Assembly: GCF_000143535.2 (NCBI RefSeq)
Contig: NC_037320.1
Coordinates: 186,001-250,000 of the forward strand
Direction of reading: 5' to 3'
Origin: Botrytis cinerea B05.10
Lineage: Eukaryota > Ascomycota > Leotiomycetes > Helotiales > Sclerotiniaceae
Length of the DNA: 64,000 nucleotides
Shown here in pieces: positions 42,872 through 64,000 of the stretch; position 1 is the stretch's first letter; every line of letters begins with the position of its first letter. The notes under the pieces were generated by a model. That model made no database searches, had not been told where the DNA came from, and worked only from the letters and a program-made list of their open reading frames with translations. The position numbers and the translations under genes are program-made.

Positions 42872-43150
42872 GATGTTGATAGTTACTTATGAGACGAGTT
42901 ATTCCAGGTCAAGTATCGACATTCAACTTTGATAATTTCTACGTTCTTTGAGGACAAAGATTATTCAGGCATTGAATGAGCGATGAGATTGTTATCAAAG
43001 AAACAAGGTATAAGATATCCGGAAATGTCGAATGTCCTTTGTTGTACGTTGTTTGATCACTACTTACCTCAAGATATTCTCAAAAGGATGAATGGTGCAC
43101 ATAAGAGAATTCATCTCGACAATCTCTGCCGAAGCATTAAGTAAAGATAG
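42872..43150. promoter_or_regulatory. Promoter-side edge of the genic segment
   Basis: Upstream DNA of the kinase-like gene. Base composition drops from ordinary to strongly AT-rich within about 300 bp around 43,150. No defined regulatory motif can be named. Confidence 0.4.
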
Positions 43151-44900
43151 ATATAATTTAAATATTTCCTTTCTACAATTGAGAATATGTCTTTAGTCTA
43201 GTCCATTTATTTATATAAATATACGGAGGTGAGGGTTTTATATAACAATGATATACAGCTATTCATGGATTCTATAAATCTCATCAAAAACAATCATTAT
43301 ATCTTATTTGTAATAATGGAGAAAGAAATACACAGAGTGATTATAATAGATTCAAACTTGAAGTGTGTTCTTACAATATTAAAAAAACAAAGTACGTAGA
43401 CTTGTACTAGATATATACACATCACTTTTACTTTACAACGAGTTATCGGGAAATATATTTTTCAGACTATTAAATTGAAACATTGCTTTTTTTGTTGATG
43501 ACTAAGAATTTCTAAATCGTCTAAGTTCGTAGTTCTCGAATTCTTTATCTCGATAATTAATAATACTATTAATGATGTAGTTTATCACCAAGCGGATTAT
43601 ATCACTAAAAAGATTACTTCAAAATACATCAAAATTAGTTATTTTAAATGTTCATTTTTGAATAATTAATTATTATTTTTGAAAAGCAAAAGAATTTAAG
43701 ATGATAATGAAAATTTAAATTTTTAAAAATCAAGTTTATATATAATTATCTCTATTATATTAAATTGAAATAGAAAATGTTACGATTTTCATTACCGGTA
43801 ATACCTTTTATATTAATTCGAATTTTTAATAAATAATTAGAGATTCTTATCATTTATAAAAACAATATATTAATAAATAAATAAAGTGCATAGTTATATA
43901 CAAACAAATTTTGTATATAAATTGAATGATTCACTTGGTGATATGATCTGCTCAATGATGAACTATGTTATATATAAGATTACAATATAATATAATATAT
44001 AAAAGCTAATCTCAAAGCCTCTAGGTCTTGCTGTACTCGAATTTAAAATATTAAATTGATAATTTGATAGATTAATAGAATTAGTTTTAATATTTTTTCT
44101 CTGTTTTTATTCTTATTTGTATAGTCTGTAGATACAGTGTTATATTTAGAAATTTTTACAAGCAAATTTTAATCTAAAATCAAAACGTCAAAAATTAAGT
44201 CTTGTCTTCAATACGATTTTCTGATAATTTAAATCATTCAGAAGTGTTAAATACGGGATACGATTATTAAAAAATCGAACTCGCTTTATTAACTAATTGT
44301 GAAGGATTCTTGTAGAAATTTTGAAATTTAAGTTGAATTATATAATTAAATTTAACCTTAAGTTCAATCATTACAATGAATTAAAGAGATATGATCTAAT
44401 TTGTTAAGTTTATTAGATTTATAATGTTTGCTAAATCTGTTAGATTTATTGAACTTTTTAGATTGATTAAATTTATAAGCTTTATAAACTTGAAGTTTAA
44501 TAATGTAATATAACTAATATAGTAACTTCAAAGCAAAATAATCTGTTTTTTAATAATAATAACAAGAAGGATTTTTAACGTTTAATAAGCTGACAAAAAA
44601 TCAATTTTGAAAAACGATTGAGATTCTAAAAAAAATATAAATTTGTAGATTTATTTGATACCACTTAGAGATCCAGATACAAGAATTCTAGAACTTCTTT
44701 TTTGACTAAAAATGAATCGATATGAATTTTAAGATTTAGAAGAAATCAAGCATGATTTACTAGAAATGAATAAATATACAAATTATGAGAGAGAATACTT
44801 ATAAAAAATAATTAAACATTAATATATATATAAATGTAAGTAAAACATTGTTACGTTACATTTTAAATACATCTGAATCTAAAATCTTATAGAATGTTAA

Positions 44901-45166
44901 TAGTCGGCTCTTATAAGCAGCCTTTTAGTTCCTACCTAGGTAGTTGGGGAAAGCGGTTGTTCTTTGAGACTTTTTTATGAGTAACTTCTTCAATTCTTAA
45001 AATAGAGCTATAAACTTAATATTATTGAATTGTTATAATTTTACTGAATTTAATAATACAATTTGTTTGCAAATAGTATAATATTTCTTGAATAGGAATA
45101 GGTGCTTTTTAGGGATAATCGCTTTCTTTAGTTAGGAACTAGAAGGTTGCTTATAAGAGCCGACTA
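44901..45166. mobile_element. Non-autonomous inverted-repeat element (MITE), TTAA- or TA-flanked, 266 bp
   Basis: The outer 32 nt at each end are inverted copies matching at 30 of 32 positions, both differences being transitions; they begin TAGTCGGCTCTTATAAGC. The inverted repeat continues inward for at least 22 more positions, gapless with only transitions, provided the 8 nt CCTAGGTA at 44935-44942 of the left arm are taken out. TTAA directly flanks both sides (44897-44900 and 45167-45170), as in piggyBac-type insertions; alternatively the target is TA and the termini begin GTCGG (Tc1/mariner-like). There is no internal ORF. The intact termini inside degraded DNA suggest insertion after most of the RIP, or mild RIP. 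Confidence 0.8.
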
Positions 45167-45459
45167 TTAATAATAATAATAAGAGTAATAATGTTTATTA
45201 ATACAAATCGAGCCAGTATAAAATTAACCCTTACAAATATTCCTAGAGATGGAAAAATATATTGAATGATGAGTTTGTCGAAATACTACAAAGAGCAATT
45301 TTATGTATAAAAAGTGAAATAATTCCTTGAATAACTCTTGTACTAATTGAAATGAAAATATTTTATTCAAAGATTTTGAAAAAGTAGATGTAGTTGGTAT
45401 TTGAAGTATTATTGAAATTCTTTAGAAAAGGATATTTGTGCTATTCATAATGAACTCTA

Positions 45460-45892
45460 TAACGTGGTTTACTAGTATACAGATGACTTATTTTATATAC
45501 AAAATTCGTCTGTGTATAACCATACACTTTCTTTATTTATCAATAGGATTTTCTGGAAATTCAAAACATGAAACTTGAATATATATAGATCTAAAGAAAT
45601 CTAATTAGTTTTAAAAGGTTCGAATTAATAAAGTATTTATTATAGAGATACCTAGGTAGTCTTTTTGTAATGAAAATCAGTACGATTTCCATTTTCTTTT
45701 TAGAATATAATAGAAATACTCACCTAGGTATATAAAAACTAAATTTCTAGAGAACTAAATTTTTGTTGTTATTTAGAGCTCTTTTATTCATGAAAAGCAA
45801 TGATTGAGTACTGAAATATAAATAAACTTGGAATTTAAAAAGCTTAATTTAGATGATTTTCAAAATGACTCGTATACTGATAAACTACGTTA
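45460..45892. mobile_element. Dispersed inverted-repeat element, copy 1 (433 bp)
   Basis: Terminal inverted repeats of about 21 nt: the left starts TAACGTGGTTTACTAG and the right, reverse-complemented, reads TAACGTAGTTTATCAG; both continue with TATAC. The body aligns along most of its length with 56933-57355, differing mainly by C/T and G/A transitions. It carries two CCTAGGTA units (45651-45658 and 45723-45730) absent from the other copy. A TA target is likely but the flanks are ambiguous. No coding capacity. Confidence 0.75.
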
Positions 45893-48800
45893 GTAGACTT
45901 GGTATTTTGGATAGATGTTTAATAAGCTTGTTTTCTATAACTTGAATACGTTTGAATAACTGATAGATTTTAATATCAAAGTTTGATATGTAGGTATTCT
46001 AATAAAAATGAAAAGTCCATCAGGAAAAATCTAATGTATTGTTAATATAAATCACAAAAACTATTGGATGAATAAAAGATTTTGACTAAACATTTAAGAT
46101 TTATGTCATTGCTAGACACTTTTATATGAAAATGCATAATTTTTTGAATGAAATCTATGTTTGTTACTGATTGTGTCTTGTCTTGATATATTATGTTTTT
46201 ATAATTGACGAAGTTTCATGTATTTTCAAATTATCATGATTGTTCTAATGGTTTAAAATTTTAGATTAAACAAAACTTCAATTGTTATTTTTTATTAATA
46301 TTGTACAAACAATTCATTTCAAGTTTTAGCGGGGAAAGTTAAATATTACAATATATAGCCAATTTTATAAAGAGAAATTTTTTAAAATATCAAATATTTA
46401 TTTCAAGATGTTATTTTTCATTAATATTTCCTTTGTAAAAGTTAAATATGTAATATAATAAATATTGATTATTTAAACCATAAACCAAAGTTGAATATTA
46501 TTGAATATAATCAAGAAAATACTTAAACCCTTTGAATGAATAAATGATAATAGAAATAATCTTTCACACGTAATAAATTTATGATTATAGAGGCAGAAAT
46601 TTGTCTCAATATTTTAGAACATAAATTTATATCAAGTTAAGCAATGAAATTTTTGTTTATTAAATAGAAATTTTTTATATGTATTTATAGAAAGAAAATG
46701 ATATCCATGATAATGATCTTACACAATACTAAATTTTAAGACTATTATTATCATAAAATTATGAATTATAAATGTTATTATTTAAATCTTGACTATCTTT
46801 TTTTGATCAAATCAATCATTTTATTTTTTTACATTTTATTCGAATATATATTTCATGTTATTTACCAAAAAAAATTGTTTAAATTTAAATACTAAATGTT
46901 TTCAGTAGTAATACTAGTTATAATAATAGCATTGATTTATATCTAAAGAAATCTTTCAAAAGAAATTGAGATATACTAAATCAAGGAATTATGATAATAT
47001 ATTATTTAATGAAGGATTTAAAAACTATAAAAGAAAAAAGCAATTTTTTAATAAATGATTCTGAATTACTGATCCTATAGTATTGCAATTCTATTATTTA
47101 TTTTGGAAAGTATTTTGGATTTAACATGTATGACTTCACAATCACTTATTATGAATAGCTATAATTATTATTTATATATTCCTTTTATTTTATTTAAAAT
47201 GGAAATATATTAATTTAAATAATAAAAGACTTTAAATACTTTTAATCTTTCTTAAATAAATCTTATATCCCTACTTTAACATTTCTACAAACTATAATTC
47301 CGAAAAATCCAAAAGATCCCTTTTTCATATTTAAGAAATTCCTTTCTATTCTTTTTCTGGCATTCCTTTCTTTCTACTATACATTTCCCACTTCTTCCTT
47401 AATAAAATCAATTTTATATTATATAAAAATATCAAAAAAACTAACAAAAGAGTAATCGGATCTTTGGAAAATGATAATTCGAAGAAAAAGGATTATACGA
47501 TTTATAAATTGTTTGAAATATTAATGATTCAATCTAAGTTTCATAGATTCTGATAAAAGAACTATAGATTTATAAAAGGCACCATATATAAATATTGAAT
47601 TTTCACCTTCCGCCGAATAATTTCATATAAATAGAAATTAATGATATAATTAAAACTAATTATTATATCATACAAAACGAATTATATAAAATATAAAGAA
47701 AAAAATGATTCTTAGAAGATTGAATATTTAATCTGATAATGGAATGAATAGAAAGGAATTCTTGACTCAATTTATATGAATTTATTAATGCGATCTTTCT
47801 GTAAATTTAAACTAAAATTAAAACCAATTTTATTAGATTATCCTTTTTGATAATCATTGATTTAACAATGTGTTTAACATATTTTAACATATTTTAAATA
47901 TAATAATTTCCATCTATAAAAATGGTAATTTCAATATCATGAACCAAAGAAATTTTTATGTTTATAATAACTTTTTTAATAGACGTTTTTTGTGTTAAAA
48001 ATCAGGAACATCTCTAATTAATATAGTTGGAGTTAAGAAAATAAATTATTATTCTCCATAAACTTATTAACCAAGAGAACCTTGGAAATGAGCAAGTTTG
48101 ATCAATTTTGAAATGTAATTAGGTAAAAGCTGAATTTGTTACCTAGGTATTAAACTTAAGTAATATGATAATCTTAATAAACTTATAAATTTGAATCTTT
48201 TTGGGAATGAAATTACATTCAACTTCTTCTAAGAGTTGTGGCCATTGCTAGTAGCACCCTCAGCGAAAATACACCAAAAACTATCATTTATTCAACTTTT
48301 CAATCCCCTGGAAATTTGATATAATCTAAAGTAATTTTTGTTAAAACTAATTTAAAATCATTAAAATCATTTAAAAGAATGAATTAAATTTTTTGGAAAT
48401 TTTTTCAATTGAGATACAAAGTTTTCAGAAAAATTGATTATTTTGTATGATAAAAACATTATATATTAGAATATTCTGAAAATTTCAATTTCGAGGTTTT
48501 GTATTTCAATTATCAAAATCATTAAAGAAATTTTATTCATTTTTTCTGAACTATTATTTAGCAAATCAAATTATATTAAAATTTTTAATTTTTAATATAA
48601 TGATTGAAAAATTTATGTAATATTTAGTTTTGTATAATAAAACACCATTTTTGTAGGAATTTTATTACAAATTGATAAAGGGTATTATAGACTATAACAA
48701 TAACTTTTATAAGAAAATAATTTATTAAATATTTTTTTATCAAAGTACTATCAAGGATTCATAAAAAAAAAATTAGATTGTAACTTATACTAATTAATAA

Positions 48801-50713
48801 CCTTATAAGACCTTATTTCATTTCTAATCCTATTCATCAAATTCTCAAATAATCGTATTTTATTTGAAATACATTGTGCAGGGGTATAAAAACAAAGAAA
48901 TGAAAAGTTAGATTATAATTATTATATGAATTCTCACAACTTGTACAATTAATTTTGTTTTCAGAATTTTACAATGACATCGTCTTGATAAAATCAAGTT
49001 TTATCTTAAGATAGAAATCACTTCTATTTTTTATCATATGATTTAAAACACGCGTTATAATTGAAAGCTGATTAATCAAAAGTAAATACAGATACCTCAT
49101 ATTATGAATCTATAATTCCCTAGTAGGATTAGAACTGTCAAATTGAGATAGATTGAAAAATGGGTATCGAAATGATAAAAAGAATGTGTGAAATGAAATC
49201 AAAATATCTTGAAATATTTATTACAGTGAAAGTCTTTTATTAGTATTTTTCTGTGGTTTTATATGGAATGATTATCTTTTTATTTGTTATTTGTTAAATT
49301 TTCGAAAAAGAAAGATAGAATTAAATGATTATTATATTTCTAATTGATTGAAAGACGTTTTAGGCTTAACAATATTATTCAAACTAGAATTGAAAATAAA
49401 AGGAAAGCTTTATTATATCACCTACCTATGTAGATTTTGATTAAGATATAGAGTTTAGAAACTCTAATTGTTGTCAATGGTGAATACCTAAGATATTACT
49501 TTTGTTATTTCAATCCAAGTAATATGAAAAAGGGGCTACTTTAGTCTCAAATTTCTCTTTTTTAACAAAAGAGAAATTGAACCAATTAATAATTCAAATT
49601 TGGAAAATAAAGCTTTTATTTTGATTACTTTGAATGTTGAACTTCTATAGAATTAATAAAATCAATATTTCAAGAAATCCGTAGAGAAATTTAAAGTTCT
49701 CAGATTTGTATGAAAAAAAAGGGTTAGATTCAATTATCATTTTTGATAATCTCTTGAATTAAAAAATTAAAAGTGATATTTAAAAAAAAATGCTAATTTT
49801 GAGATTTTGAGTGTCTAGGTACTAGAACACAAAAAAGTATTACTTTACAAATTTATCTCAATTTAAATTTTATAGTTTTAAAATTTAAGTGAAGGCTCAA
49901 ATGAAAGTATCAAATAAGAACATTATTTATATTACAAAAATTTCATAACAACCTTTATCAAAGATTATACTTGAAGCTGGATTAGGATACATATTAGGAT
50001 TTAAATACTAATATTTGAATGGTTTTAAGTTGAAGGATATTTTCGATGTTATCTTCATTTTAGTCTAATAAATAAAAGATATAAAGTCACATTAATAATT
50101 GTATTTATATATTGAAATTTAAATTGAAATTCAGATTCATATTTAGATTATAAAAGAATACAAAAGCTTATACAACTCGAGTTCGAATAAAAAGTGACTG
50201 AAAACTTTTTAACCTTTTCATTCTTGAAAATTTTATAAGATATAATAGAAGTATAAATTTAGATTCTGAGGACAGAAAAAATAAATATAAAAATTATTAC
50301 AGAATTTGTTATTACCTAGGTACTTATGATTGTGAAGATTTAACAAAAATCTTGCATTTTATAATTTGAGTTGATATATAAATCATTTTTAATAATAACA
50401 TTAATAAATGATAAGTTTGAGAACACTAAATCAATCACATAACTGGCTATATTAATAAAAGTCTTATATCTACTCACAAAACTTACCTAGCTAGGTATAT
50501 TACTATCATTAAATTGATAAAGAGAATTTAGTTCTCTGTATTTAGTTTTTTATTTCGAAGTTCAATATGTTATACTACATATCAAAATTAACCTAATAGA
50601 AATGGAAAATTAAATTAATCTTTGTGTACATAGAAATGTTTTTGTTTCCTAGGTAGTATTAAGTTGATAGATTTCAAAATTGTATCATTGGATTCAACAA
50701 ATATAGATTTTAT

Positions 50714-50900
50714 GACAGATTACTCTCATACCCCGTAAGAGCAATTTAATTACTCTTATGCTCTTAAAATATTTTATCAATTCTATATAGATTCAAGTCT
50801 TTCAAGGCTGTATTCCACATTCTCGCCTCTCCACCCACTCTATAATAGAATCTACCTATTCATTTATATAAAAATGATTTAACAGTATGTCACCTATAAG
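50714..50900. mobile_element. Degraded relative of the foldback/Mutator-like element
   Basis: The stretch beginning GACAGATTACTCTCATACCC and followed by a GCAATTTAATTACTC-like segment and TTAAAATATTTT parallels the left arm at 60915. A CTATAATAGAATCTACC stretch further on recalls its internal repeats. A possible right terminus (GTGTAAGAGTAAGCTG) lies near 51,090-51,105, but the match is weak, so the right boundary is uncertain. Confidence 0.55.
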
Positions 50901-53900
50901 AGTATATCCTGGATGTTGACTTCTATTCCATTGTAAGAACCAATTAGCTGTGTATCTAGGTACGAAAATTAAACTAATCTTTTGTAAATAAAAATATTTA
51001 CTACATCATACACTTTCCTATCATAGAATCTGCACATTCCACTATTGATATTATTTAGATCTCATATGAAATCTATGCAAACTTTAGAGAGTGTAAGAGT
51101 AAGCTGTTTTTCAATTTCACAGCATAAAAACAATCAAATAATATTTCGGGATATGAGAATAATTTGCTATATTAGATTGATACACCTAAATGAGAGCTTC
51201 AGATTTATTAAATTTGTTAAAACAATCAATGTTCAAATGCAAAATAAAGGATTTATCAAGTGAACTATAGAGATTCAAATTGAATATTAAATCTATTCTA
51301 ATAACATAAAATTAATTATACTTGTTGAAATCTATAACTACGGTTAGATTAAAATCTCTATAATATTTAGATTTAAAATGAAGAATTTAGTTAATTCAAA
51401 TACTATAATAATGTTATAATCTTAGCGTACTTCCCTTATATTTTTTAAAAGAAACAAAATGATTGAAAAAATGCTTTGTACTTTTAACTAAATAATTTTA
51501 ATTATATGATTCATTTTTTCTAATTTGATTCTTATGATTTTATAGTTAATTTTCATTCTGTTTTAATAAGAAACATGATTATATTATTGTTTTATTGTAG
51601 AGTAGAACGTTTCTTATATTTGATTTTGAGTGGATTATGATAATTCATATATTTGAATGAAATAATGTAATTGATATTAAGAAGTTTATTATACTTTGAT
51701 TTCTATAATGTGATAAATATAAAATGAAGAGTAAATACCTATCTTTCGTGGAAAAAAATTATTATTATTAAAGAGTATACACTGTTCGATTATTTTCATA
51801 AGCGGAACAGTTTTTGTTATTTATTTTGTTAATATAATTATTAATTAGGATTTGTAGATTTGGGCTTTAAAATTATTGTAGATGGATATCAAATTAAATT
51901 TAAATTTAAATTTTTTATTGATTTTATTGATATTCTAAATATAGATGATAAGTATTCAAAAAGAACTGTTATAATTGAATTAATCAAATTTGAAATATAA
52001 CAAATGAAAACTTCGATTTTCATTCTAAATTTTTGAAACTTGTATTGAACGACTTTTTGTGCTTTAATAATTAGGTAATCGTACAGTTTTCCTTTTTTTA
52101 AAAAGAAATCCTTGAGATTGTATATTAGATTGAAAGATCGCGTAGTATTATAATTACCAGTTGAGATTGAAGATGGTAATAGTAGTGGTAGTAGTAACAG
52201 TATCAATTTTTATTTAGTGAAGACAGATTTAAAATCTACATTCTATAATATCTTAAACAAAAATAAAGATGTATTAAATTAAATGTCTCAAAATTATAAT
52301 AATTAAATAACCGTTGAAAATGTATCTAATTTATAATTTTATAAAACCATTCAAATAGAACTCTTTCATTTTATTTAAAGTAAGTATATATTGATTCAAC
52401 GTAATATTGATTTTTGTTACAAAAACGCGATAATCAAAAGACTTACTTTAAAATCATTAATGGATTAAAAAACAATGAAATAATCATTTTTGATTAGAAA
52501 TATAGATTTTACATGAAATAAGTAAGTCAAAGGAAAAAGTCTATTTAAGTAGTCAGTATATTAGTATAAAAGTTAATGAGAATAAAGAGTTTGATAATTT
52601 TAAATGATCTTTTTAATAATGATAAAAAACACTTGGTTTGACTTATAATTATAATTAAGAGATTTTTTTGAATATCTATTATTCAAAACATCTTTAAAAT
52701 TTAACATAATAAAAAAATATACAAAGAAGCCTTATTTTACTTTTAAAAGTACTCAAAATTAATACTTTAATAACTCAATTCTTATAATATCAGATGAAAC
52801 CTTTATAAAAGAAATTAATAAACACCATATAAACTCGAATTTAAAAAAAAGGTAGAAAAAGCTCAATTTTGTATTAAAAATTATATTTTTAGTAATTAAT
52901 TAAAGATTTTAGTTTTTATTTGAATTATTCCATTTGTTAAATTTTATAAGAATACTTTTTAATATTTATTTCATATTATTAATAATAAATCATAAGTCAA
53001 ATGTAAAATTACATATATTAAATAATATCAAACATTGACTAAAATAATTATAATATATCAGACTATGAAGGTTTTATTCGGATATAATTAGACATATCTT
53101 GATTTAATATTTATTGATATTTTGATTATACATGGAAGGATTTATTATATATTAATAATTTTCTTGCTGAAAAATTGAGGAACTATATTAATGAGTTTTG
53201 AAGAGTATATCATTTGCTTTTTATTTTAATTTATAATATAATATGTCCAACGTATTACTTTAATTTGTTTATGAAGACTATAATTTTATTATTAAAAAAT
53301 ACCCTTTAAAGTTTTTTGAAATCTTTTGTAATAATTTCTTTATTGAATTCTAGTATAAATTTGATATAATTTTTTTTTTAAATAGAATATAATAATCGAA
53401 GTTTGAATTTGAAACTTATAAAAAAGAGATTATTAAATTATTGAATTTTGATTTCAGAGATTTATTAATCTTCTATTTTTTAATTCTTGATAGTAATTAG
53501 GGAAGGATATATTTAATTAAAAAATATATAATATTACCTAGGTATTAGTATTAATATAATTTAAGAACTATAACTAAATATCTCTTAAAATAGCCTTCTT
53601 CGAAAATTTTTTATAAGAAAAACTGTAATTAGAAGGATCATTCAAGCTGATAGTATTTCTTATATTATGACAATTAAGATTTTATTACCTAATAAATTCA
53701 ACATATTATTTAATTTTGATATTGATTATTATACTTTTGCTTATGTGGCTTAGTTTAGAAGGTTAAATTCTTCTTATACATTATATTTCAATATTATAAA
53801 GTGGAAAAGAAACTATATAAATAATAGTAATCCTACATAGTAATATATTATTAATAATTTTGATAAGGTTTTACATATGGAATGTAATGTTTTACGTTTT

Positions 53901-56900
53901 TATAGCTTTTTTTGAATAGTATATCTAAGAAAACTATTTTCTCATCAATTTATATTTTAAATCATTATATAATTAGCTATAAGCTAACCTTATTTGCCAT
54001 AATAGAAAATAAATAACATATTTGAGATTAAAATCATTATATTTCTTGAATAAATAAATCATTTTGAGCTGTTATAATATAAAATACTTTTTTTCTTTCA
54101 ATTTAACTCATTACTTTTAACTTTCGTAATGAAAGCAATAATATTATTCTCAAACAAACCAAAGGCTCTATTTATAAGAATTATCAATACGATTGAAATA
54201 TAATTGAGAATCTTCCATCTAGGTATAAAGAGTCTAGTTAAATATCAAGCTACTACTGCTACTACAGTTTGAAAGTCTATAATTAATTAATTGAATATTA
54301 ATTAATACTCTAGCTTTTTTACAAATTCAACCCTTATTAATTAAACCATGTTAATTACTGAGATTTGTAAAATCTATTAAAATATTAATAATTACATAAT
54401 TATCTTAAATTTTCAAAAATTTGAGAGAATTTATCTCAAGGACTTGTTTTATTATACCTAGGTATTTATATTCTTTTAAAGAGGGGATGAAAAGATTATA
54501 AATAACAACCTTGGAATATGGATAAGATTCATTACTTAGTTTCATATATGATTATTGGATTTGTAAAATTTCAATCATTTAGTAATGTAAATTCTAGAAA
54601 TTGATTAATTCAAATATATTTATAAAAAGCATTATTTTAATAATTTTCCATATAATTATATATATAATATTCTTAATTTCAATATAGTATAATGTTATCG
54701 ATAATAATAGCCTTTTTAGAACAAATAACATATAATTCTATATTTTGAGGATTCTCTTAAAATAAGATATAATAAAGTTATCAATAAGTTATATTAAAAT
54801 TAATCTTACCTAGGTATATTGTAAACATTATTGGTTTTGTATTTATTTTAATTTCAAACTAGTTGATAATGAAGATTTCTTTATTACTAAGGTGAGTATA
54901 TTTCTATTGATTATACTTTTTATCCACTTATTGTTTTTTAAAGTAGTATTAATTTATTAATGACTAAAGTTTTTAAGACTTTTAAAATTTCATCAATTAA
55001 ATTTTAAATTTAAGAGAATATCTTAGGATATATTTAATATCACTAATCAATATTATCATAAAAATAATGAAAGTAAAATACTGTAGAGATAAGGAAAGTA
55101 TTAAGATATTATTAATTAGAGATTTATTATATCGACCCTGAGCGAGATCGCAAATAGCAATTCGTATAACAGATGAGATGTACCTATATAGAATAATAAT
55201 TTATGAGGTTATTACTGTTAGTTTTTTATTAAAAGAATCGAATATTAATTAGTCATTATTTAACCCAATTAACCCTTTAAACGTTTTGAAATCATCAACA
55301 GATTAAATACAAACATCAAAAGAAATAATGATGTACTTATGTATCTATGAGGATATAAACACAATAATAAATATAATACTGATCGCAATGTTGATAAATT
55401 CTCTTATAAATTGTACACTGACATTCTTTATACAAGAAGACATGATTAAAAATTTATTAGAATTAGGAAATTTATAATAATAACATACATGTTGTTAGTA
55501 CTATAATGAAGATAGTCAATATTGGGAAAACTTAATATTTAAATATCTATTGCTTTTTTGATTATATGTTTCTTGTTAGAATGAAAAATTATCGTAATTC
55601 TATTGAATACTTGAGCTTTAGACTCCATGATTGTAATGAATATTTCAAAACAGTAAATATATCCCCTAAGATACTAATAGAGGATATCTCACTTATACAT
55701 GGATCATACTAACCAATCGGATTTTCAGGACATTGGGCCTTCTCATCAATTTAGAGATATATCTCATGACAATTAATAAAATGTTTTCTATTATGATATA
55801 AAGAAATATCATATTCTTTATATCCATATAAATCTAGGAACCTACTTATACATTTGAGCCCTTTTTATTAAAGTTTATTTGATATTTCCTTTAAAATTGG
55901 GTACTGTTTTTGAATCTAAAGATTGATTTTTATATATAGTAAAATCTCTCTTACAGTCACCTACCTAGGTAATGTATATCAATTAATGATTTATAAAGAA
56001 GGTAGAATCCTTAATTGAATCCTTCGCAACTCGTTGTGTATTTTTACAATAGTATTTAAATCCAAATCCAAAATGAATCCCCCATAAACAGATTTTCGAA
56101 AATCGCTATATTATCTTTTAAAACAATCTTTTTGTATAATAACTAACAGTTAACTAAAACAACAATGAATGATTATTATTCTATAGCAAAATAGCTTTTA
56201 TAGTATTACTAATCTGATAGTATAGTATATGATTAATTATTCATATTCATATAATAGTTATAATTATTAATAAAGTCCAAAATAGATAGGTAGTTATTTT
56301 TTTTAAATAATTTTCGAATGATCCATTAACTATTTTGACTTTTGAAGGAATAATTCGTAGTTATTCATACATTTTAATGATATTAGTTTTCCTATTATAT
56401 ATTATAGATAGAATCAGAACCAATGAATTATTTTTTTATACTATATAATATATATTATATGAGAGTACTATCATTGGAATGAAATGTTTTTCATAGGATG
56501 GTATTACCTTTTTCTTTTTTCAATAAAAAAATAAAAAACACTAAAAGTCAATTTATATATTTCTGCTGTTATATATTCTACCTATATCTTATATGTAATT
56601 TAAGAAGATGTTGAAAACAAATAGATTTTAAGAATAAATACGATGTAAAGCTTTAGTTAACTTTCTTATTAAATATAAAACTATAACTAGAGTTTAATTT
56701 ATAAAATTCTTTTTTTCTATGGAGTCTAAAATAAAGAATATAATTATATTTACAGCTTATTTTTTATTAGTTTTGTATTGCCTAATTTTATTTGACAAAA
56801 AAATCCCGATTTATTATCATCTATATTTTAAGTATTATAGATATAGATCTACTTAAATATAAGTAAATTAGTATAGAGAATTTGATTTGATGTCTTGATT

Positions 56901-56932
56901 TTTTTAAAAAATATTGTTTATTTGGGAAATAA

Positions 56933-57355
56933 TAATGTGGTCTATCAGTATGCAGGTCATATCATCATATAGGCCATCTCGTTTTATACACAAGATTCGT
57001 TTGTATATAACCGTGCACTTTCCTCATTTAATAATATAATTTTAAAAAATCTAAAAGTATGAAATTTAATTATATGATTATTATAAAAATCTAATTGTTT
57101 ATTAGAAATTCGAATCATTAAAGTAGTTATTAAAACAATAATTTTTTTGTAACGAAAATCGTAACAATTTCCACTTTTTTTTACAATATAATAAGAATAT
57201 TTATATAAAAACTAGATTTTTTAAAAGCTGAATTTTTATTATTATTTAATGCTCTTTTTTTTCGAAAATAATTATTAGTTATTAAAATGATAATATTGAA
57301 AAAGGCCTAATTTTGGTGTATTTTCAAATAGCCCACATGCTGATAAACCACATTA
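56933..57355. mobile_element. Dispersed inverted-repeat element, copy 2 (423 bp)
   Basis: Same family and orientation as 45460-45892. Termini are TAATGTGGTCTATCAG on the left and, reverse-complemented, TAATGTGGTTTATCAG on the right. Shared landmarks include ATTCGTTTGTATATAACCG, TTTTTTTGTAACGAAAATC and TATATAAAAACTA. Relative to copy 1 it has extra sequence near the left end (about 56,960-56,975) and lacks both CCTAGGTA units. No coding capacity; presumably mobilised by a transposase encoded elsewhere. Confidence 0.75.
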
Positions 57356-60300
57356 GTATAATATCTCATATGAAATTTTTAAAATCTATCCCTTCTTATA
57401 AATCATAAAGAAGAATATTTATCTAATTATATTATCCTTATATCTTTAATAGATTTGGATTTTGTATTTAGAATAAATAGATATAAATATAAAACTCTAT
57501 ATATAAATAAATCTTATTTATTATTGTAGAATATTTTAAAAAAATTATCATAAGTTTAATAATTATTTATCTTTTAATGTTTCTATATATAAATTCCTGT
57601 ATTTTATAATCGATTTTGGTATTTCAATAGAAAAATAAAAGTAGATTAGATTAAATATAATTATTACAACTTTTAATATTAATTGATAAAAGGTTTTTTC
57701 GATTAAAATCAATAAATTTTATATTTAGGTAGATATGAAGTATTTGTGTATTTTGAAAGTTGAAGGAGTATTTGGATATAGTATTCTTATATCAATTGAA
57801 TCAAATTGTATATCGATTGAAGGTATATTGATTGAATTGTTGTATTTAGTGTATTTGTTGTTTTATTGAATAGGTATTAGTATTATAAATTATATTATTT
57901 ATTGATGATTATGTTTGTATATGGATTATTCAAGGGGTTTTAAGTTAGAGTATTAGGGGATAATTCAAAAATATTATATTGATGGTATTCAAAATGAATA
58001 GAAAAGTTTAATATGAAATAGGTAATGATTTTGAAAAATCAGATTCAAAGGTATAAAGATATTTGGAATTGAGAATATTGTATTGATGTGAGTATTTATA
58101 AATCGTATTTGAATATAATCAAGTTTTCAATTTAATTTAAATATATTTTTAATTATAGAACAATTTATGGATTTCGAAAGAAATGAATGTTAATTTTATT
58201 TGATAATTTTATTCAGTGATTATTATTTTAGGATTATATCAAAATAATGAGAATGATAGTGATAGTATTTATTAATATTTAATAAATCGAAATAAGATTT
58301 ATTCGAAAGATCTATTTGAAATATAGAAAAATATTAAGGTATAGATTTATTTGAATATTATAAAAGGATCTTGAATATCTATTTGAATAATCTCTTTATA
58401 TTAATTAATACATTTAGATTTTTAAATTCTTTTTTAAAATATCTATTAGAAAAACAATATATATATATATGTTTTTTTGAATGTATATATATCTAATTTA
58501 GATTATATATATAAAAACGATCTTTTTCAAAAGGGATATTTGTTTTGTTTAGATTATATTCTAAAATAGATTTATAATATTTAAGATTAATAGATTTATT
58601 AATATTTTTGTTTTCTTCAATTCTGATATAGCTAGAGAATTATTAAACCTGCACATTCAATATCTTTTAAAAGGCAATCAACAACTAATATGCCATTAAT
58701 TTTATCAGTCCAAAACAAATTATCATTTAACTTCTATTTCAATATGTTACGTATTTAAATTGCATACCGAGGTAACTTCTCATTTATCGATAAACTATTG
58801 ATCCGGAAAGATAATAATACTAATTTTTCAACTAATGGTATTTATTGAATTCATTATATGTTACAAAACATATATATATAAATATATATCTATGAATCTA
58901 ATTACACACAAATAGACTCTTTTTCAATATTGAAAGTTTGTTTAAAGATTTAATATTTAAGAATTGTCCTGTCTCCTACAATAAACAGAAATATATATTA
59001 ATAAATCATAAAATAGGAAGTGCCTTTTCTTTGATTAGATATACTTACGTAGGTAGGTGGATAAGAAAATAGAATTTGGTATTATGAAATATAATGTCTA
59101 ATAGACTATTTCCGTATTTATTTTTAAGATTAAAATACCTTATTTGATCAATGTTATAGTTTATGATTTCAAGTTTTACTTACTTTGTTACTTAGGGACA
59201 TAATTTCTTTCGGTGAATGAACGAGTGAATGATATGAATAATAAATGGTACTTCTCTGCAATACTAAAACCAATGAACTATTACTCATTTTCATTAAATC
59301 ATAAATATTACATATAATAACTAGAATTTCAATAACCTTTCTTATAACACATATATCTTTCAAGAATTAAATATCAATTGTATGACCTAGGTATATACTA
59401 AATTTTTTGACGACAAATTATATGTTTTTTGGAATGATAATTATTAAGGAGACAACAAGTTTTCTATTAGTAATACAATGAAAAAAACTATTTATTTTAT
59501 TCATGTTTCTTAAAGATTAGGAAAATATGATTTTCTACATTACACTTAGGTATGAATAATTTCTATAATCTTTACTGAAATGAAGATATTGAAGTTTAGA
59601 GCCAAATAATTTAATTTAAATATAAATTAAGAGTTATTTGTTACAAAATAGATTTTGTTATAAAGAACAAATCTTTTTCTAGTGAATCTTACATATTATC
59701 TTAAGATCAAATCTGATCAGGTTTCTTAATCCAAAAATGGGTCATTCGTTTCCAAAAAAAAAACTAGAAGCTAATTTTTTAAAAGAAAACGGTCTTGATA
59801 ATACTATTTTATAACGGTAGTCAAGTTATTCTCAACATTTATAATAATTACGAAAGTTTGAGATCTCCTAAGAGAAATGCGATAAATAAAACGGTTAATC
59901 AAATTGACAGTATTTTAAGATTTTGATTCCATTTTTACACAACTTAAAATATACTCATAAGAACAATTTTAAAAGAGGGACTAGCTAGATTATACTTATG
60001 TATAATCGATCGTTAGACAGGAGATCATAATTCTATAATCAACAATATCATTAAATATAACAGTGAGTTAGGTACTGTAATACTCCTAAATATTAAAATG
60101 TAAATCTTATACTATTGAAATTGATTTTCTTTTTTCTTATACTGTTCAGATTTTAGTTTCAATAAACTTTGTTCTACAATAATTTCTAACATTCAATTGT
60201 AAATTTTTTAATAGGTTTTAAATCTTAGATTCTAAGTTTTATTCTAAATTCTATGTTATTGTATAGGTTTGTAGGGCGAGGGGAAATCCTAGAATCTCAT

Positions 60301-60905
60301 TTAGATTTTAAAATCTCAATAATTGTTTTTTCAAAAGATTCGAATCATAATCTTACAATTGAGATTCTAGATTGTAACTCAATATTATAGATCCTAGTAA
60401 CTATCAAACAATTTAAGTGATATGAAAAGAATTTAGATCAACTTTAAAGGCAGGTATGAAAGTAATTAGGTTCATTTTTAATGATCTCAGAATAATTTAC
60501 CATACTTAGCTGTAAGAAATTTCATTCTTATAATAAACAAGAGTATCCATTCTATTTTATTGATTGATTTATTCAAACTAATACAAGGTCATAAATTCAA
60601 AACGACTGTATATTTATGATTTTGATTTTGTTATGAAAGATCTTGAGCTTTTATTGAGTTCAGTTATTACTTTCATAATATCATTTAGTAAAAGTAGATC
60701 TAAAAGTTATGTATTCAATAGATTTTAATCTCTTTTGAATTTCAAAGAATAGTATTTTTTAATGAAATAGAAATTATATTTAATTCTCTCTAACATTTGA
60801 GGATGTTTTGTTTTAGTCATATTGAGAATACTGAAAAAAGGTTTCGATCTGATATACAATCTGAAATAGATTAGGTAATATAATAATCAGAAAAGTAATG
60901 GTTAT

Positions 60906-60914
60906 ATCAAAATA
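60906..60914. repeat. Left copy of 9-bp target-site duplication
   Basis: ATCAAAATA immediately before the element at 60915; identical to 61387-61395. Confidence 0.85.
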
Positions 60915-61386
60915 CGGCAAATTACTCTCATACCCCTTAAATGTTATTTAATTATTTTCCTACCCTAAAATTTGAAAAAAAATTAGTTTCATAACCCTTA
61001 GATTCTATAATAAAATCTATTATAGAATTTAGCCTAAAATTATAGAATCTAGCCATTTTAGATTAGATTCTAAAAGCGTAGATTTTATAATAGATGATAG
61101 AAGGGTAGATTCTATGATTAAAAGTATGGATTCTATAGTAGGCAATAGAACGGTAGATTTCATGATAGGCGACAATAGGGTAGATTCTATAATAAAGTAG
61201 TTTATAATTTTTATCTTTTTCAAATATAGAATCTAACCTCAAAAGGTTAGAATCTATTCATTTGATTATAGAATCTATCATAGATTTTATTATAGAATCT
61301 AAAGAGCATAATAGTAAAAATTTTTCTGAATTTTAAGGCATGAAAGTAATTAAATGACATTTGAAGGGTATGAGAGTAATTTGCCG
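60915..61386. mobile_element. Foldback/Mutator-like non-autonomous element, 472 bp, with 9-bp TSD
   Basis: Both ends read inward CGGCAAATTACTCTCATACC, then continue as imperfect inverted repeats for about 115-120 nt per arm (through the TTAGATTCTATAATAAAATC segment). That leaves a short centre made of tandem GTAGATTCTATAAT-type units. Perfect 9-bp direct repeats ATCAAAATA flank it (60906-60914 and 61387-61395). Long inverted repeats with a 9-bp duplication are typical of Mutator-like (MULE) or foldback elements. The minus-strand frame at 61029-61223 (repeating IESTLL units) merely translates the internal repeats. A related fragment occurs at 50,714. Confidence 0.85.
61076..61200. repeat. Internal minisatellite of the foldback element, period about 25-27 bp
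   Basis: Four to five degenerate units beginning GTAGATTYTATRATA and ending in GAAGG/GAACG/ATAGG, in the centre of the 60915-61386 element. Confidence 0.7.
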
Positions 61387-61395
61387 ATCAAAATA
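61387..61395. repeat. Right copy of 9-bp target-site duplication
   Basis: ATCAAAATA immediately after the element ending at 61386; identical to 60906-60914. Confidence 0.85.
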
Positions 61396-63267
61396 ACTAA
61401 ATGTCGTTTAAATAATGTTAAATATTAATTTTAGTTTTATTTCAATCTGAATCTTTTTTTTTTTCAAAAATAATAGAATCAATTTTTTTGACCATAATAT
61501 CGATAAATTATAGATGTCTATGTAAAATTCAATTAATAATCTTTATCTTACATTTGAGTATTCAACAGATAATATATTTATGATCTTTGTCAATATTAAT
61601 ATATAATACTAACTTTTGTATATACAACAAATTTCGTAATTTCAAAGTTTATTAAAACAATATTATATATATGTATTCAGAAACTATACAGAATTATCAA
61701 TACATAAACAAAAAATTACGGAAATCAAATAAATTTTGAATCATAATTTATTCACAAAATCTATTGGTTTTTACATGTAATAGTGATTTATCATTCATTT
61801 TAAATGATCATATTAAGTTATATTAATGATAATATTACACTTGACTTATATCATCAATTGAATATAGAGTAAACAATGAATTATGAATTTTTTTAAAAAA
61901 GAATTACTTCAATGATAATAATATACCTAGGTGAAGTCCTTACACATTTTAATGCATATAAATAAGAACATAAAATACACTTTTAATTTCGTTTTTTTTT
62001 CGATTTAGCTTATTAACATTACTTTCAAAAGTATTACATAGATTTATTTAAATCATTAAACGTATAAATGATTACTGTTGTTAAATGTAATTTGATTTTA
62101 TTCAAACAAAGTCGTTCTAGAACTTTGAATATAAATTTAAATAAATATTTATAATCAAAAGAAGAAGTAGAAAAATGTTTTTTTCCTTTCTACCTTGGTA
62201 TTTTCTTTCATAAAGATATGATTGAAACATCAATAGTTAATTTTGTTATGAATATGAATAACTTCATTTTTGTAATTTATAATTATAGTATTTAAGTATA
62301 ATAGAAAAGTATAAAATATTAAGCCTTAAAATAAAAAATAAAAAATAAAAAATTCTTATATAAATTAAAGTCGTTTTATTATTGAGAAAGACTTTTCATA
62401 TTTTGATTTATTAAATGAGAATAGAAATGATTGAATCCATATTAAATCGGTTATTAGCATAAAATAAATTTTGATTCAAAACGCTTTTTGTTAATTATTA
62501 ATAATACTTTGATTAAAAACATTATAAACAAAGCTGAAAAAGACTCCTTAATATGTTTAATATCAATATTAATAGAGAGAAAAATGCCTACAAAAATTGA
62601 AATAAATTAAGTAATTTAAAACAATTTAATTTTGTTTCATACAAAACGATCGATTATGTAATATTATTGAATGTTTTAATACCTAGGTACTTTGTTTCTA
62701 ATTCATTCTACATATTTAAAACTTTCTCGAGATTATTTATTATATCATTCAAGATTAGGTAAGATATAAATTTGATTTACTGTTTATTTTAAAAGTTGAT
62801 TATATTCATTTATTATATTTTAAGAAGTTTAAGAAAAATCATGACCTGTTATTTAATCTGAATTATATAAGTTAAAATGATTATGACTGCAAAAAAATTC
62901 ACGAGAGCGAATTTTTGATTTTGTTAAAACTGGTATGCTCTTTGCTTAATAAATATATTCGAATTCAATTCAAAAGAAATTAATCATTCTAAAATTTGCT
63001 TTTTGTCTCAAATATCGAAATATAAAATTAATAAGTAACAACTTTATTAATATGTTTGATATTATGATTTTGAAAAGCAATAAGCCATTTATTTAGTATT
63101 TTATTTTCAAAAAATCAAAATACCTAGGTAATGAACTTATCGATCAAAAGAGTTAGCTAATGTTGTAAATGTAATTTCTGACTTTAATTTAAAACTCATG
63201 ATTTAACTCGAATTATAGTAGATTTTAATTGTGACAAAAATAACGGGAAAAAAAGAGATATTGAAAG

Positions 63268-63330
63268 CCACAGCCCCAGACCAGCAACAAACACAACACA
63301 AACAAAAAACAAACAAAAAAGAGGAAAACA
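63268..63330. repeat. C/A-rich low-complexity island inside the AT-rich block
   Basis: A stretch of about 60 nt made of CAGCCCCAGACCAG followed by CAACAAACACAACAC-type simple sequence, with G almost absent in its second part. It retains many CpA dinucleotides, unlike what RIP would leave. Origin unknown. Confidence 0.6.
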
Positions 63331-64000
63331 ATTACAAATACTCAAAATGCCATGAAATTAATTGAAATATTATTTAAATTCTTTATGAATTCTTTATAAA
63401 TTCTTTACTAAAGATATTTATTCATGTAGCATATTATATTGAGTTTAAATAAATCTATAATAATTACAAAATTACTTATAATGCTATATTGGAAAGCAAT
63501 AGACTTTTTTTTAACGATACTCAATACAATCAAAATAATTTGAATGCACATTTTCCACATTATTAGAAAGAAAATCAATTATTTTCATACTTTCTAAACT
63601 AATCCAAATTTAGTTTTATACTATTTATATTGTAAAATCCATAATTGATTTTTTTAAAAAAATCCTAAATTCAAATTTTCAATTATAGATTCCATAACAT
63701 ATTTTAGATTCTAGCTTTGAAATTTAAAGTCTGATTTAATTATATAATATTTTTCTTTGGAAGATCCAATAACATTTTTTAGAAAAAATATAGAAATGAT
63801 AACTTTATAATCATAATTCTAAACTATAGTCTTGAGAAACTACAAATTTTAGCTATTATTGAATTTATAGTAATAATATCATATAGTATTATTTCATGTA
63901 TCAATACCTAGGTATCTTGTTTATCGGTATATAAATTAAAATTCAATTTAAATTAATGTTTGTAATATCGTAGTCTCTCCTTTTTTTTTGTAAAAAAAAT

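Follow-up and report, generated by a model that had tools for sequence, protein, structure and literature searches.

What places the same 10 nt palindrome, TACCTAGGTA, again and again in the AT-rich DNA of Botrytis cinerea B05.10? The question arises from a window of 64,000 nt (contig C11, 186001–250000, within an assembly of 42.63 Mb and 18 contigs), the composition of which shifts at about 43 kb from gene-bearing DNA of 41–46 % G+C to gene-poor DNA of about 21 % G+C. The AT-rich block at 43001–64000, for which no open reading frame of at least 120 aa is listed, is part of the motif cluster on C11 and is possibly a centromere. The copies, called scars below, belong to a real, genome-wide series of insertions with a 4 nt step, which is densest in AT-rich blocks on 17 of the 18 chromosomes.

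Within the AT-rich 21 kb, TACCTAGGTA occurs in 11 exact and 11 one-mismatch copies, two of the latter (50484 and 50488) overlapping within one 14-mer. Between 0.01 (order-1 model) and 0.06 (order-3) exact copies would be expected, and no more than four matches, exact or one-mismatch, were obtained in 100 dinucleotide shuffles of the window. A previous, sequence-only reading of this DNA had given the same exact count and an expectation of about 0.01, which is about right, but had counted five one-mismatch copies. The flanks of the copies are unrelated to one another.

Insertion into TA

Nine of approximately 119 exact sites (91 in AT-rich DNA, 28 elsewhere) lie in repeats with alignable paralogues within the roughly 240 kb of non-redundant sequence, 0.6 % of the genome, that was used for alignments and element searches. 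Removal of the 8 nt CCTAGGTA improves all 27 alignments at all nine of these sites, with a mean gain in score of 8.8, compared with 180 of 4,844 random positions and 12 of 273 other TA-N6-TA words. No partner in the 27 alignments has the motif, even when one mismatch is allowed. Taking out the exact unit gives the highest or equal highest score in 20 of the 27, and a shifted removal is better in the other seven.

The window holds the cases from which the insertion had originally been proposed. For the scar at 45649–45658, removal improves seven of seven alignments to paralogous copies; against the copy at 56982–57358, which holds both empty sites of this repeat, the score rises from 28 with the unit to 39 without it. 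The neighbouring scar at 45721–45730, with one outer mismatch (CACCTAGGTA), corresponds to an 8 nt gap in the 56982–57358 copy and in five others. Likewise, the inverted arms of the element at 44897–45170 fit once 8 nt are taken out of the left arm, where the scar at 44933–44942 lies; over about 20 letters beyond the unit the remaining differences are, by eye, transitions. All three comparisons of the sequence-only reading are thus borne out. Its caveat that the motif might be a fixed part of one family's consensus is ruled out by the unrelated flanks and by the absence of the motif from all 27 partners.

Clean gaps of 7, 8 and 9 nt were found in 20, 34 and 13 alignments, respectively, and 17 of the 34 gaps of 8 nt are the motif unit; one further 8 nt gap falls on a decayed copy, TACCTGAGTA. 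When each site is counted once, the three classes hold 20, 22 and 13, so that the 8 nt peak is small. In the clearest cases the insert stands between two TAs where the empty partner has just one. With a single filled copy facing as many as seven empty ones, a gain of the unit is simpler to assume than its loss. The aligned repeats are old (64–81 % identity) and individual alignments are imperfect; the conclusion therefore rests on the whole set. At sites with paralogues, then, the unit has been cleanly inserted into TA. A permissive all-against-all alignment of the AT-rich DNA returned mostly chance matches of 57–60 % identity and was replaced by stricter scoring.

A series with a 4 nt step

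The 8 nt unit is one step of a series that runs TA, TACCTA, TACCTAGGTA, TACCTACCTAGGTA, TACCTACCTAGGTAGGTA. Most counts below refer to 71 kb of ‘cluster DNA’, consisting of window positions 43001–64000 and five loci (L065–L069) selected inside or beside clusters, a sampling that is not centred on motif sites; a 136-kb set also includes loci picked for motif presence, and its exact counts are inflated for that reason. The pattern TACCT-N{g}-AGGTA occurs 46, 6, 3 and 1 times in the 71 kb at g = 0, 4, 8 and 12, and 91, 11, 4 and 4 times in the 136 kb, while spacings of 1–3, 5–7 and 9–11 are absent from both sets. Across the whole of C1 there are 21 sites at g = 4 and 7 at g = 8, with 1–4 at every other spacing from 1 to 9. 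The three-unit word TACCTACCTAGGTA occurs 90 times genome-wide on both strands, against 2 for its control. Seven places carry at least two units on each side, one of which has three and two (C1 514552).

The one-unit forms behave in the same way. With the full motif masked, TACCTA/TAGGTA occurs 120 times in cluster DNA against 51 expected, and the next similar word reaches 59. Removal of 4 nt improves 13 of 18 TACCTA/TAGGTA sites, in comparison with 93 of 637 other TA-NN-TA words. When removals of 4 and 8 nt compete, 10 of the 18 sites are best at 4 nt and three at 8 nt, with five showing no improvement or a tie; two of the three that favour 8 nt are a single TAGGTAGGTA site (8 of 8 and 7 of 8 alignments). 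Four of the ten 4 nt sites match the 10-mer at all but one letter, and so may be two-unit scars that have since changed; the other six lack such a match. Four of the ten are supported by a single alignment each. Taken together, the 4 nt spacing, the counts and the removal tests define the series as TA(CCTA)n(GGTA)m, n and m both being small, and speak against the proposed fixed unit of 8 nt.

Nor does the longer word at 50484–50497 stand out as a special product of 5+5 nt. Its sequence, TACCTAGCTAGGTA, has 8 copies genome-wide, its one-letter relative TACCTATCTAGGTA has 11 and TACCTACCTAGGTA has 90. The word is probably three units in length, with a single altered letter.

The order of the units is also informative. 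Maximal runs in the 71 kb comprise 36 of TACCTAGGTA, 2 of TAGGTACCTA and 1 of TACCTACCTA, whereas independent insertions of single units would give comparable numbers of each. A single event therefore makes the palindrome, CC lying on its left side and GG on its right. The motif also occurs in tandem and nested form, and unpaired products are rare in 135 kb (TACCGGTA once, TACCTATAGGTA not at all). An apparent preference for targets with T at +3 was strong against all TAs and weak against TA-NN-TA controls, and was set aside.

Distribution across the genome

Genome-wide, TACCTAGGTA occurs 702 times and its control, the reversed word, 62 times, which confirms the enrichment that the sequence-only reading had asked for. 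The 71 kb of cluster DNA hold 46 exact copies against 0.65 expected, and 60 control palindromes of equal make-up average 0.03 copies there. Outside its densest group, C1 has 43 copies in about 3 Mb among the matches listed.

Positions were drawn from two lists of sites with T/A-rich flanks, which are a sample of the 702 and favour AT-rich DNA, and from a flank-free list that covers C1 to 3.06 Mb. Sites were counted as clustered when at least two lay within 15 kb. The T/A-flanked lists contain 133 distinct sites, 82 of them in 17 groups, one per chromosome on 17 of the 18 chromosomes. On the flank-free list, 7 of 50 C1 sites fall in the densest group (755–765 kb) among the matches listed, and nine smaller groups of 2–3 sites also satisfy the 15-kb rule among those matches. 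Euchromatic sites lie inside frames of at least 100 codons in 7 of 28 cases, compared with 52 % of random positions.

A word marking AT-rich DNA occurs 73 times, 66 of them outside clusters, and none of the listed motif sites lies within 5 kb of these 66. The motif is thus not a simple by-product of AT-richness, and a general effect of AT-rich DNA or of repeat-induced point mutation was rejected on the same sampled lists. In density, cluster DNA and C1 outside its densest group differ widely (46 copies per 71 kb as opposed to 43, as listed, over about 3 Mb). Enrichment does not follow AT-richness as such.

The AT-rich motif clusters may be centromeres; in PMC10971195, centromeres of B05.10 are predicted from low GC content, size and lack of genes. 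C7 has no dense motif group in the site lists, with at most two sites, 7 kb apart, and its centromere may be younger or lie elsewhere. The AT-rich marker words of C7 crowd at 1.81–1.87 Mb despite the lack of a dense motif group.

Decay

Words with 0, 1, 2 and 3 mismatches to the motif number 46, 43, 53 and 229 in the 71 kb, compared with 0.65, 5.1, 38.5 and 253 expected. The excess of 45, 38, 15 and none agrees with about 8 % of letters having mutated neutrally, and is what drift would produce in a word that is not kept against mutation as a centromere-binding site. Strong selection on the motif would not give these counts. For the two-mismatch class, where 15 are observed, a single age predicts 16 and steady accumulation 26; the background is uncertain, and a single age fits slightly better, though not decisively.

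Origin of the series

The insertions could, on an even reckoning, be the repair scars of TA breaks made by an excised, TA-targeting transposon of the Tc1/mariner kind, the CCTA overhangs of which rejoin through TA. An enzyme of this type would leave each flank with a 3′ overhang that terminates in CCTA or, in some cases, CCTACCTA. The final TA of CCTA is self-complementary, so that two such overhangs can pair through it, and filling of the two-letter gaps would yield TA-CC-TA-GG-TA, with 8 nt added. Should one overhang be lost, the other would pair with the TA of the opposite flank to give TACCTA or TAGGTA, with 4 nt added; longer overhangs of 8 nt would give TACCTACCTAGGTA and TACCTACCTAGGTAGGTA, and pairing of flank with flank would restore TA without trace. 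The scars would then decay by ordinary mutation, remaining densest in gene-poor AT-rich blocks, and the element that made them would have died out, be rare or lie beyond the sequence read. The model accounts for the 4 nt step, the central TA, the placing of CC before GG, and the scarcity of unpaired products. As a mechanism, breakage followed by annealing fits well; the transposon itself is inferred. Tc1/mariner elements target TA, cut with 3′ overhangs and leave footprints of 2–3 bp through end joining, according to PMC8151067 and PMC3464196, and an element of this kind is for that reason the likeliest source. From the sequence-only reading there stands a scar inserted into TA at unrelated places, with a TA-specific cut-and-paste element as its simplest source; its arithmetic of 3+3 and 5+5 nt does not.

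Several observations weigh against this account. No element with ends of the form TA-CC...GG-TA was identified in the roughly 240 kb searched, nor was the full element TA-CCTAG...CTAGG-TA that had been predicted. Four inverted pairs start with TACC, of which three belong to the interior of longer repeats and the fourth lies at L069:3525–8458 (see below). In the TA-type elements examined, the TA is followed by ACGTG, AGTTGAG or ACGTAACG. A 4 nt overhang exceeds the 2–3 nt known for Tc1/mariner, real footprints are usually more varied, and the longer scars demand transposon ends of the form CCTACCTA. The uneven chromosomal density requires a second assumption, either DNA age or targeting. Any sequence preference of the target beyond TA itself is slight (p = 0.045 and 0.021), and one unpaired TACCTATAGGTA does occur on C1. 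Summed over spacings 1–9, the genome holds 486 TACCT-N-AGGTA words against 679 of the reversed control, with no excess, so that only the 4 nt classes stand out. Finally, 25 of the 90 TACCTACCTAGGTA copies are in clusters, compared with 82 of the 133 T/A-flanked 10-mers, a difference that the model does not predict. The other 65 copies of TACCTACCTAGGTA lie outside clusters, and a separate regulatory role for the euchromatic ones is conceivable.

Candidate sources were sought on both the protein and the DNA level. Two of nine DDE_3 matches exceed the cut-off, and one of the two is free of stops (330 aa); 53 DDE_1 matches also exceed it, 24 without stops. None was linked to CC...GG ends in loci L070–L082, where such ends were sought. 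A 172-bp candidate (L017 856–1027) with 11-bp terminal repeats, TACCTAGTTAT, was rejected, as that word shows no enrichment, with 39 copies in the genome compared with 62 for the control, and elements of the Fot1/Flipper type were rejected on account of their unsuitable termini. One inverted pair, TACCTAGGTAACTTACTT/TACCTAAGTAACTTACTT, lies at L069:3525–8458 with 4.9 kb between its members and is the sole TACCT...AGGTA pair over threshold; it may be due to chance or may represent element ends.

The series could be read without a transposon, if a polymerase added CCTA units to 3′ ends broken at TA, in the manner of telomerase, and the ends then paired through TA. The combinations of (CCTA)n and (GGTA)m seen (n,m = 1,0; 1,1; 2,0; 2,1; 2,2 and the single 3,2 at C1 514552) suit such stepwise addition, and the failure to identify an element would need no further explanation. 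We know of no enzyme with a CCTA-type template, however, and the placement at TA points to an enzyme that cuts there. The telomere repeat reported for the related Sclerotinia is TTAGGG (PMC3158057); addition of that G-strand would place GG before CC and so reverse the observed order. Addition at break ends is a minor possibility, though one to be kept in mind. A broader form of the idea, that a dedicated reaction mends TA breaks in fungal centromeres by adding CCTA units to each 3′ end and joining them through TA, so that the cores would hold a countable and datable record of breakage, is doubtful.

A selected protein-binding site, whether regulatory or centromeric with a role like that of the CENP-B box, would explain why the word is a palindrome, why a site group is found on each of 17 of the 18 chromosomes in the T/A-flanked lists, and why the euchromatic copies are mostly outside long frames (7 of 28 inside, as above). 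Its copies nonetheless differ from their paralogues by indels of 4 or 8 nt and not by substitutions, the mismatch classes follow single-age drift closely (16 predicted and 15 observed at two mismatches), and C7, with its two sites 7 kb apart, has no dense group; we consider such a role unlikely. Very unlikely is a self-contained mobile palindrome that copies itself into TA, as the sequence-only reading had offered by analogy with yeast mitochondrial GC clusters. The identical insert does occur in unrelated flanks and in nested and tandem copies, but the half unit, CCTA or GGTA, is inserted alone and is the best-fitting insert at 10 of the 18 testable sites, six of which are not one-mismatch copies of the 10-mer, and the palindrome is too short to contain ends that serve a mobilizing enzyme. 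Slippage or tandem duplication of existing TACC or TAGG words, requiring no break enzyme, would produce the 4 nt periodicity and is in keeping with the tendency of the flanks towards TA-NN-TA. Yet the clearest empty sites are a single TA, with no TACC or TAGG available to duplicate, and 4 nt removal seldom helps other TA-NN-TA words, which makes slippage highly improbable.

Comparison with known systems

If the transposon account is followed, the nearest relatives of the scars are the footprints of Tc1, Tc3, Mos1 and Sleeping Beauty, which likewise consist of a few terminal letters between two TAs that derive from the target and its duplication. Those footprints are 2–3 bp long. The present inserts measure 4 or 8 nt, with a central TA; the two-sided ones are perfectly palindromic, there are longer 4n forms, and no donor element is known. 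The one-unit form, CC plus TA, fits a 2–3-bp footprint; CCTAGG and the longer 4n forms do not. The elements of this genome that we take to be of Fot1/pogo and Flipper type, together with MITE-like elements (miniature inverted-repeat transposable elements), share the TA duplication and the same AT-rich blocks, but their termini after the TA are ACGTG..., AGTTGAG... or ACGTAACG... and so cannot give CC...GG.

Yeast mitochondrial GC clusters resemble the scars in being short, palindromic, G+C-rich inserts in AT-rich DNA; the scars are nuclear, 4–8 nt long instead of tens of nt, and change in 4 nt steps. The 12-bp AT-rich centromere motif of Malassezia and the CENP-B box are, like the scars, short motifs concentrated at centromeres. 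Scar copies differ from these in being decaying insertions that are absent from paralogues, and the centromere assignment is putative. Ciliate internal eliminated sequences are bounded by TA and thought to derive from Tc1/mariner-like or piggyBac elements (PMC3464196); their excision is precise, whereas here a scar is added. Strings of TACC/TAGG like those described here may also occur between genes in Sordariomycetes.

A description of this motif series was not found in the literature on the motif and its longer forms, on CCTAGG palindromes in fungi, on fungal TA and Sleeping Beauty footprints or on Botrytis AT-rich DNA and centromeres, as represented by listings and the openings of abstracts. 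If the insertions are excision footprints, they would be the fossil record of an element that the sequence read did not reveal, and the uniformity of the palindromic footprints would be explained by a repair signature of TA pairing between self-complementary overhangs. Should they instead be products of break healing, a new end-addition reaction exists. In either case, short datable insertions would allow the age and breakage of centromere-like DNA to be measured, and would preserve traces of past DNA breaks in parts of the chromosomes that are difficult to read by other means. Presence or absence of the 4n-nt units could additionally serve as strain markers where little else aligns.

Other sites and elements

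Further two-unit scars were assigned in the window by motif match at 48140–48149, 50313–50322, 54455–54464, 54807–54816, 62680–62689, 63121–63130 and 63905–63914. Another, at 55962–55971, follows CACC and possibly represents three units, decayed. The two-unit scar at 53535–53544 has a single alignment, which is weak for absence from the partner (16 against 17). A one-unit scar, TACCTA, was placed at 53686–53691, where 4 nt removal is best in the only alignment.

Several repeat elements accompany the scars. The inverted-repeat element at 44897–45170 has 42-nt arms that are 93 % complementary and ends near TTAATAGTCGGCTCTTATAAGC, and is a possible MITE. Elements of approximately 420–590 bp in cluster DNA (L065:5902–6494, L065:6737–7172, L068:583–999 and L027:2558–2982) have ends near TA-ACGTGGTTTATCA; ends of this type resemble those of Fot1-like elements with open frames of 406–621 aa (L073, L074 and L081). 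A Fot1-like family at L082:357–2214, with a 598-aa open frame, 12 copies and ends of TA-ACGTAACGTATGGGGAACTCGGACA with a 17-nt direct repeat, is probably recent. An inverted-repeat element of approximately 506–527 bp at L062:331–837, with ends TAAGAGTTGTGGCTATAGCTTG, is missing from three paralogous copies. In the cluster on C5, a microsatellite-like array of AGAAAGGAGAATT units occupies L052:2662–2720.

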